In this document: piece by piece, positions 22,156 through 25,306 of the stretch | Position numbering within the stretch: position 1 is the first letter of the stretch | How the letters are laid out: each line of letters begins with the position of its first letter | From: Candidatus Adlerbacteria bacterium | Lineage (GTDB): Bacteria > Patescibacteriota > Minisyncoccia > Phycocordibacterales > SBAW01 | Length of the DNA stretch: 32,643 nt | Reading direction: 5' to 3' | Assembly: GCA_903851045.1 (NCBI GenBank) | Contig: CAINNF010000015.1 | Coordinates: 1-32,643 of the forward strand | Program-made: the position numbers and the translations under genes | The notes under the pieces: generated by a model | What the model was told of the DNA's origin: nothing | Seen by the model: only the letters and a program-made list of their open reading frames with translations | Databases searched by the model: none

Positions 22156-24696
22156 CTATCCGTCGATATGGTCGAGAAACCGCTTTTTGAGAGACTCGAC
22201 GAGCAAGAGGTATGTGGACACCAATATAATGAGAACGACGAAGTAGATGGCGGGAGGGGCAACGAAGCCTAGGTCAGCGCCGATACGTGTAAATGGAATG
22301 AGAACCGCGAGTGCGACTATCCCGAGACAGGATATAAGCAACCAGCGGCTCGGTCGGCTCCGAAAGAAGGGGGTGCGCGAGGTGCGGATAACGAACACCA
22401 CCAACACCTCGGTCATCACCGACTCGATGAACCATCCCGTCTGAAAGAGCGCGCCATGCGACGCGAAGCTCCCGGCACCGTAGTACATCTGGATGATGAA
22501 GAACATCGCACCGAAGGTGAGAAAGTCGTAGAGCGAACTGACGGGCCCGAAGAAGATCATGTACTTACGAATGAAGTCGATGTTCCAGTGGCGCGGCTTC
22601 ACGAGCGCTTCGCGGTCGACGTTGTCGGTCGGGATACTAAGCTGCGAGAGGTCGTACACACCGTTGGTGACCAGGATCTGTACCGGCAACATCGGCAAGA
22701 ACGGGAGGATGAACGACGCACCCGCTGCGGAGAACATGTTACCGAAGTTCGAGCTCGTACCCATGAGAATATACTTGAGCGTGTTACTGAACGTGCGTCT
22801 CCCCTCTCGGATACCCTCACAGATGACATCGAGACCTTGGTCGAGCAACACGATCGACGCCGCCTCCTTCGCCACGTCGACGGCTGTATTGACCGAGATA
22901 CCAACGTCGGCACCACGCAGCGCCGTGATGTCGTTGATACCGTCGCCCATGAATCCGACCACGTGACCGTGCGAGCGAAGTATCTTGATGATGCGGAGCT
23001 TGTTGTCGGGCGTGAGACGCGCGAAGATGTTGTGGCTGATGACGACATCTTTGAGCTGCTCGTCAGTGAGCGTGTCGATCTCGGAACCGATGATGACACC
23101 CGTCACCTTCATGCCGACCTCTTCGCATATCTTTCGAGTGACCAGTTCGTTGTCGCCAGTCACGATCTTTACGTCGACATGCAGGTCATTGAGGTCATCG
23201 AGCGCAAGCTTCGCGCCTTTTTTCGGCACGTCTAGGAACGTCACATACCCAAGGAGTGTGAGATCGTGGACATCGTCCCACGAGTACGCACCCTTCTTCT
23301 CGACCACTCGGGATGCGACCACCGCAACCCGTAGACCATCCGTATTGAAAGCGGTGAACTTCGCCGCCAGTGACGCGGTATCTTCGGAAACGCTATGGGA
23401 AAGCATGAAATCCGGCGCGCCTTTTACGATGAGCGTGCGCACACCGCCCTCTTCGACGACACAGAACATCGCTTTGTTGTCGAAATCGAACGGCTCTTCG
23501 TCGATCTTGACCACCGAGTCGCTTGGTTTGATGTTCTCCTGCCGTGCGTACTTCCATAGCGCCGCGTCGATGCCGTTCCCGACGATATGATTGTGAGCCA
23601 TCGCTTCGTTGGCGTTGAGCGCCGCGATGAGCACCTCTTTGTCGCGCTGGTCTAAGAGATTCGCATACTCCATAAGCGTGATGTTATCTTCGGTGAGCGT
23701 GCCAGTCTTGTCGGTACACAGCACGTCCATGTTGCCGAGATTCTCTATCGCAATAAGCTGCTTGGCGACAACCTTCTTTTTGGCGAGCTTCCCTGCGCCG
23801 TGCGCGAGACTAATGGTCACGATAACGGGCAGAAGTTCGGGAGTAAGCCCCACGGCGATCGCAAGCGCGAAGAGCAGCGATTCCAGGAGCGCATGCCCGA
23901 GCGCGAAGTTGATGATGAAGATACCGATACACAGGATGATGATCGTCCGCACCAACAGGTTGCCGAAACTAATCAGCCCTTTTTCGAACTCGGTCTGTGG
24001 CTTTGTGAAGGCGGCGCTCTTAGCTATCTTGCCGAACTCGGTATCCTTACCGATCGCGAGTACGACCCCCTTACCGGTGCCGTTGTCGACCGAGGTGCCC
24101 ATGAACACTTGGTTTGACATCTCGGAGAGACCATGGGGAGAGGTGCCGAGCACCTGCGCGGTCTTGAAGGTCGTCTTAGATTCGCCCGTCAGCGCCGACT
24201 CATTCATCTGCAGGTCGTTGACCGCGATGAGTCGCAGGTCCGCGGGCGCGATGTCTCCACGCGAGAGGAGGATGATGTCGCCAATGGTAACGTCCGACAC
24301 TGGCACCTGCTCACGGGTACCGTTTCGTAAGACGAACGTCGTAGCGGAGATACGCTTCAAGAGCGCTTCGACGGTGCGCTCCGCTCCATACTCGTTCCAA
24401 AACCCGAGCACGACGCTTAGGAGTATCATCGCGAAGATGTAGTACGAACTGATGTGTTGTCCAAGCAGATACGCGATTGTGGTTGCGCTCGCGAGGATGA
24501 GTATGAGCGGGTTGCCGGTCAATTGTCGAAACAAGATCCCGAATAGGGAGACGGAGTGGCGGTCAAGCATGTTCGATCCGTAGAGTTCGCGGCGCTGCGC
24601 GACCTCGGACGCCGTAAGTCCGGTCGCCCGCGTATCGACACGTTGCAATATGTCGTCTATGGAGAGACATTCCGGCTGCACGATATTTGATAGCAT
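22156..24696 (-). CDS. mgtA: P-type ATPase, magnesium-importing type (MgtA/MgtB-like)
   Basis: The protein has 846 residues, full length for a P3B ATPase. N-terminal soluble region, then TM helices; TGES of the actuator domain (170-173), GLTPELLP in TM4 (283-290), phosphorylated Asp329 in CTDKTGTLT, the KGAP nucleotide loop, TGD and GDGIND hinge, then VTNGVYDLSQLSIPTDNVD in TM6 and a C-terminal helix bundle. The TM4 and TM6 motifs fit the Mg2+ group rather than Ca2+ or heavy-metal pumps. It starts 6 nt after an extended -10 (TGC-TACAAT), so the mRNA is leaderless and has no room for an Mg2+ riboswitch unless transcription enters from the RNA gene upstream. Confidence 0.93.
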   Translation of the reverse strand: MLSNIVQPECLSIDDILQRVDTRATGLTASEVAQRRELYGSNMLDRHSVSLFGILFRQLTGNPLILILASATTIAYLLGQHISSYYIFAMILLSVVLGFWNEYGAERTVEALLKRISATTFVLRNGTREQVPVSDVTIGDIILLSRGDIAPADLRLIAVNDLQMNESALTGESKTTFKTAQVLGTSPHGLSEMSNQVFMGTSVDNGTGKGVVLAIGKDTEFGKIAKSAAFTKPQTEFEKGLISFGNLLVRTIIILCIGIFIINFALGHALLESLLFALAIAVGLTPELLPVIVTISLAHGAGKLAKKKVVAKQLIAIENLGNMDVLCTDKTGTLTEDNITLMEYANLLDQRDKEVLIAALNANEAMAHNHIVGNGIDAALWKYARQENIKPSDSVVKIDEEPFDFDNKAMFCVVEEGGVRTLIVKGAPDFMLSHSVSEDTASLAAKFTAFNTDGLRVAVVASRVVEKKGAYSWDDVHDLTLLGYVTFLDVPKKGAKLALDDLNDLHVDVKIVTGDNELVTRKICEEVGMKVTGVIIGSEIDTLTDEQLKDVVISHNIFARLTPDNKLRIIKILRSHGHVVGFMGDGINDITALRGADVGISVNTAVDVAKEAASIVLLDQGLDVICEGIREGRRTFSNTLKYILMGTSSNFGNMFSAAGASFILPFLPMLPVQILVTNGVYDLSQLSIPTDNVDREALVKPRHWNIDFIRKYMIFFGPVSSLYDFLTFGAMFFIIQMYYGAGSFASHGALFQTGWFIESVMTEVLVVFVIRTSRTPFFRSRPSRWLLISCLGIVALAVLIPFTRIGADLGFVAPPAIYFVVLIILVSTYLLLVESLKKRFLDHIDG

Positions 24697-24702
24697 ACCG
24701 AT

Positions 24703-24708
24703 ATTGTA
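24703..24708 (-). promoter_or_regulatory. Promoter -10 of mgtA
   Basis: TACAAT on the minus strand, preceded by TGC, ends 6 nt before the ATG. No -35 is visible. Confidence 0.6.
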
Positions 24709-24773
24709 GCAAGAAAAAGAGTGCCTTGGTTGCGTGCACCGTCAGAAACGATGGGTGTTGGACCCCCACACGT

Positions 24774-24805
24774 AAAAAGGTCCCGCACCTAGGAGATGCA
24801 GGACC
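24774..24805 (-). terminator. Rho-independent terminator of the noncoding RNA
   Basis: On the minus strand GGTCCTGCATCT pairs with AGGTGCGGGACC (12 bp, with G-U pairs, 3-nt loop) and is followed by TTTTT. The plus side has no T-run. Confidence 0.88.
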
Positions 24806-24880
24806 TGATTGAACGTACGAAAAGAAAGGAAAGGAAGCCACTCGGGGAGGAGCCGAACATGTCGAGCGGGGCGGGTAACC

Positions 24881-24907
24881 CGTCTCAGCTCGTCTCAGCT
24901 CGTCTCA
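24881..24907. repeat. Short tandem repeat inside the noncoding RNA
   Basis: CGTCTCAGCT is repeated 2.7 times in direct tandem. In the RNA it reads GAGACGAGCU units, inside the domain closed by the 11-bp long-range stem. Confidence 0.9.
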
Positions 24908-25085
24908 AAACTCACCCGAGTGGCTACCGAAGGCGGCTTAGTTGGCGAAGACGGTTGCGCGGGCCATCCGTTCGCCGTTCCAAGCTTTTAGTGCATAGCC
25001 TTTTCGATACTGCCTTGCTCTGCGGGTGGAGCTCGGCAGACCTACTTCGACCTTGCACTGCCCTCGGTTCTGTGCAACTGACTAA

Positions 25086-25113
25086 AGTATAGCGAAGTTC
25101 GCCTAGAAGTCAA
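25086..25113 (-). promoter_or_regulatory. Promoter of the noncoding RNA
   Basis: TTGACT (25113-25108) and TATACT (25091-25086) are 16 nt apart on the minus strand. The predicted start is an A near 25079. The -35 lies inside the last codons of the 67-residue gene. Confidence 0.8.
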
Positions 25114-25306
25114 TACCCTGGAAATCTGCTAGGGTACATGAAAAACGTCCAGTCTCGCTAATCTCCACCTCAGTCCCGACCATATATGGTCGACGCTCAA
25201 GTGAGTACGACCGGTACATCTCGACCGCCACACTCGTTACACGTAAGCGCTCTCTCAGTGCGTCGATCTCCCTGAGCAACCTTTTTACTTGTTGTGTAGG
25301 ATCCAT
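25103..25306 (-). CDS. Small soluble protein with N-terminal coiled coil, unknown
   Basis: The protein has 67 residues (MDPTQQVKRLLREIDALRER at the start). Residues 5-25 form a heptad-like helix, and a short beta-rich part follows. No family is recognised. GGAGG sits 6 nt before the ATG, and an extended -10 (TGG-TATACT, 25357-25352) gives a leader of about 39 nt. Its last codons contain the -35 of the downstream RNA gene. No terminator separates the two, so readthrough into the RNA is possible. Confidence 0.7.
   Translation of the reverse strand: MDPTQQVKRLLREIDALRERLRVTSVAVEMYRSYSLERRPYMVGTEVEISETGRFSCTLADFQGIDF

Follow-up and report, generated by a model that had tools for sequence, protein, structure and literature searches.

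On the minus strand, just upstream of a magnesium transporter gene, lies a stretch of about 306 nucleotides that carries a promoter match at one end and an intrinsic terminator at the other, encodes no convincing protein and is predicted to fold into two large domains. The likeliest reading, to which we give an even chance, is that it is a free-standing gene for a lineage-specific structured small RNA. The three elements by which such a gene is recognised (a promoter, a non-coding body and an intrinsic terminator) are all present, at the level of sequence only, and the candidate is probably an orphan, found so far in one bacterial species. In the order in which they would be transcribed, the features of the locus and its neighbours are:

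25103 to 25306, minus strand: upstream neighbour, a possible 67-aa orphan gene with the Shine-Dalgarno motif GGAGGG and a weak coding score
25086 to 25113, minus strand: sigma-70-type promoter TTGACT-16-TATACT, a consensus match only, 10/12
24774 to 25079, minus strand: predicted transcript of about 306 nt, start set 7 nt past the -10 box, fold z -5.5
24927 to 25068, minus strand: 5' domain with a long closing helix, two arms and a three-way junction, 47 predicted pairs
24836 to 24925, minus strand: second domain, an 11-bp closing stem around a tandem-repeat region, z -5.2
24810 to 24837, minus strand: pyrimidine-rich linker CUUCCUUUCCUUUCUUUUCGU..., predicted to be mostly unpaired, a candidate pairing region
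24774 to 24806, minus strand: intrinsic terminator of 13 pairs with a 3-nt loop, then TTTTT, from a terminator scan and the fold
22156 to 24696, minus strand: mgtA, a magnesium-translocating P-type ATPase (TIGR01524, 764 bits against a cut-off of 611), the downstream neighbour, outside the RNA gene

Promoter, folded body and terminator

The promoter proposed in an earlier, sequence-only reading is indeed there, TTGACT and TATACT standing 16 nt apart at 25113 to 25086, and the window (the full stretch of 32,643 nucleotides analysed here) has only four sites of its quality, counting both strands. Transcription was taken to start at 25079, a spacing borrowed from the leaderless promoters of the same genome. 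The spacer between the -35 and -10 boxes contains a perfect palindrome, GCGAACTTCGC (25092-25102), which occurs a single time in the window where 0.04 would be expected; it may be an operator or repressor site and is offered as a lead only. At the other end the terminator and its TTTTT run were found as described at 24806-24774, with a stem of 13 pairs where 12 had been counted, and its hairpin (24806 to 24778) has a folding energy of -21 kcal/mol when taken alone. The intervening stretch, given earlier as some 305 nt without a credible open reading frame and here as about 306 nt, keeps that character, as every frame scores like antisense DNA: between -0.19 and -0.32 per codon, where real genes score +0.25 and antisense frames -0.21. 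A 98-aa open reading frame on the plus strand over the same region has a codon score of -0.16 and matched no Pfam family.

Folded in full, terminator included, the RNA reaches -137.3 kcal/mol (z -5.54 against shuffles). The 5' domain contributes -64.6 kcal/mol at z -4.7, and no shuffle folded equally well. In the second domain both elements of the earlier description were recovered, namely the 11-bp long-range stem (24925-24915 paired with 24846-24836) and, within the domain that it closes, the 10-nt tandem repeat, two copies of CGTCTCAGCT at 24881-24900. The linker between this domain and the terminator (24837-24810) has a mean unpaired probability of 0.81. Without its terminator the RNA folds at z -4.05, which is unusual but matches the low end of what 130 window tiles give (minimum -4.07, mean -0.49, sd 1.31) and stays within the range of this window.

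Such figures also leave room for the less favoured but serious possibility that there is no RNA gene here, only a chance promoter-like site, the terminator of the upstream reading frame and a GC-rich spacer that folds by chance. Sites of these kinds are not rare, 0.7 promoter-like and 1.5 terminator-like ones being expected by chance in every 2 kb; the fold z sits at the edge of the tile range and not beyond it; and neither the RNA nor the adjoining 67-aa frame, itself an orphan, is conserved. What tells against chance is the company these elements keep, for two domains at z of about -5 lie between a 10/12 promoter and a 13-pair terminator, and only three long gaps in 400 kb of the genome combine a promoter of that quality with a terminator on one strand at comparable spacing. 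Further candidate RNA genes are the minus-strand promoter-terminator units in the intergenic regions L110 16970-18070 and L107 8091-8602, of 159 and 260 nt; neither has an Rfam match.

Known families and the search for relatives

No known RNA family accounts for the locus. The Infernal/Rfam search that had been proposed as a check was run and gave nothing at gathering cut-offs and, at E 10, only a chance 18-nt snoRNA match. The earlier remark that the RNA has no tmRNA or M-box features was borne out: ARAGORN found no tmRNA in the window, RF00023 was likewise unmatched, and no Rfam riboswitch, the M-box included, matched the RNA locus. Nor did RF00013, RF00169 or any other Rfam SRP or 6S family match in the window; in the genome, which is about 96% complete, RF00169 (small SRP RNA) and RF00013 (6S RNA) were undetected up to E 1. 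The genome's tmRNA lies away from the RNA locus, at C2:11835-12215, and its RNase P RNA at C18:83527-83982, scoring 85 bits, below the Rfam cut-off of 100. That score is typical for the order: RNase P RNA falls below the cut-off in 25 of the 38 order-sample genomes in which one was detected.

Relatives of the RNA were sought widely. DNA searches recovered no homolog in 98 relatives (34 congeneric genomes among them) or in 384 sampled genomes of the class, and in 397 sampled genomes of the order, at E values up to 1, only scattered pieces of 15-50 nt, fewer than chance allows. BLAST against phages and plasmids gave no relative, exact 20-mers gave no match in GTDB or viral contigs, and a literature search yielded nothing pertinent. 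A covariance model built on the 5' domain of this one sequence retrieved only the original from 99 genomes, and again only the original, under laxer filters, from 35 genomes of the genus. Diverged homologs may have escaped, because a model of this kind does not reach far and searching the genomes starts with a coarse first look. Following the neighbours led no further, since the RNA accompanies neither mgtA nor the 67-aa frame in other genomes, and PADLOC returned no defence association for the RNA's neighbours.

A single sequence without homologs therefore shows neither covariation nor any sign of selection. The sequence-only reading had treated absence of conservation as grounds for refutation; as far as can be searched that absence is real, but we read it as weakening the case for a gene and not as refuting it, because the species is isolated and its transcription of the locus is a prediction. 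The same reading had suggested a housekeeping or a lineage-specific RNA. The second half of that suggestion agrees with the lack of an Rfam match and of any homolog in the collections searched; the first is unsupported, because RNase P RNA and tmRNA are encoded elsewhere and the RNA is absent from congeneric genomes. It is also conceivable, if improbable, that the RNA represents a new type of large, structured non-coding RNA limited to a single small-genome lineage, with a conserved architecture of three-way-junction and repeat-bearing domains that would become apparent with the sequencing of close relatives.

The neighbouring genes and the RNase P-like words

An obvious reading would make the RNA the 5' leader of mgtA, attenuating transcription in response to metal through a fold that decides whether the terminator forms, for the RNA lies on the same strand and its terminator stands 78 nt ahead of the start codon of a Mg2+ ATPase, a position typical of riboswitches. 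Several results make this unlikely. In the stretch 24697-24712 a TACAAT stands exactly 6 nt before the ATG of mgtA, with no Shine-Dalgarno motif, and across the 391 called genes of the genome -10 boxes show a sharp peak 6-7 nt ahead of the start codon, where 40 genes have one; those at 4-8 nt number 51 against 15.8 in shuffles. On these two grounds mgtA is likely to be transcribed, leaderless, from a promoter of its own, so that the RNA would end before the next transcription unit begins. The same genome-wide peak suggests that leaderless mRNAs are common in this genome. Upstream of the best mgtA orthologs (64-79% identity) there is no such leader, and in several of them a -10-like site stands just before the start. 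An attenuator would further call for an antiterminator, but shuffled RNA offers the two terminator arms partners as good as the upstream RNA does (191 and 57 of 200 shuffles), while the terminator's own pairs have predicted probabilities of 0.81-1.0; and the Rfam search, as noted above, produced no riboswitch.

More doubtful still is that the RNA is the cis-acting 3' UTR of the 67-aa reading frame and not an independent gene. The arrangement invites the thought, as no terminator separates the two and the stop codon of the frame falls inside the RNA promoter. Yet the RNA has a promoter match of its own, and the frame is weakly supported, with no homolog in 40 relatives or in GTDB contigs.

The scrambled RNase P-like words of the sequence-only reading resemble one molecule, E. 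coli M1, beyond chance, but not the RNase P RNAs of this order. In local similarity to M1 the three best matches sum to 39, where 300 shuffles reach at most 32 and 420 window tiles at most 33, and the words common to both include CUCCACCCG(CA)GAGCAAGGC and GAUGGCCCGCGCAA. With 28 RNase P RNAs from the order the excess is small and variable (z mostly -1 to 3), the RF00010 covariance model gave no match up to E 10, and a profile HMM of those 28 sequences and M1 (29 in total), with local matches allowed in any order, found nothing in the RNA and scored the RNase P RNA of this genome at 212 bits. The order of the words is wrong, no circular permutation yields it, and GAUGGCCCGCGCAA lies in a different hairpin. 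M1 was picked for comparison only once the words had caught attention, and neither their order nor the helices agree. The resemblance is therefore not taken as homology; it is unexplained, and coincidence is most likely. With a normal RNase P RNA at its own locus besides, a rearranged or second RNase P RNA is highly improbable, for all that the word score exceeds every shuffle and tile.

Proposed action and comparison with known systems

If the locus is a free-standing small RNA gene, RNA polymerase would start about 7 nt after TATACT and stop at the intrinsic terminator, short of the separate promoter of mgtA. The RNA so released, about 306 nt long, would consist of two large folded domains, a pyrimidine-rich tract left single-stranded and the terminator hairpin. 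Its likeliest action would be that of an ordinary trans-acting sRNA: protection would come from the folded domains, and the C/U tract, being open, may pair with purine-rich stretches such as the Shine-Dalgarno regions of target mRNAs. We infer its transcription, stability, base-pairing function and targets from the sequence. The genome does make use of Shine-Dalgarno-like motifs, which 119 of 391 genes have where shuffles give 75; against gene starts the pyrimidine tract paired no better than its shuffled versions, and targeting of this kind is a conjecture.

Were the locus transcribed, it would add a large structured RNA, specific to its lineage, to a small genome (1.25 Mb, among relatives of 0.4-1.4 Mb) with few recognised RNA families. 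The locus also serves as a worked case of how a riboswitch-like position, upstream of a Mg2+ transporter, turns doubtful once leaderless promoters are considered.

Set beside known systems, the RNA shares with class A RNase P RNA (RF00010) its size range and a few short words of E. coli M1, but differs in matching neither covariance model nor HMM, in the order of those words and its helices, and in having the real copy elsewhere in the genome. With 6S and SRP RNAs (RF00013, RF00169) it would have in common a free-standing gene; neither family has a match in the genome or the window. The leader riboswitches of mgtA and mgtE, the M-box among them, are likewise structured, terminator-bearing RNAs that precede a Mg2+ transporter gene on its own strand, whereas here Rfam match and antiterminator are absent, mgtA appears to have its own leaderless promoter, and the orthologs are without the element. 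Trans-acting sRNAs with intrinsic terminators are mostly shorter than this RNA, which has no homologs and whose targets are a conjecture, but they share with it a promoter of its own, the lack of an open reading frame, a folded body, an unpaired pyrimidine-rich tract and a terminator.
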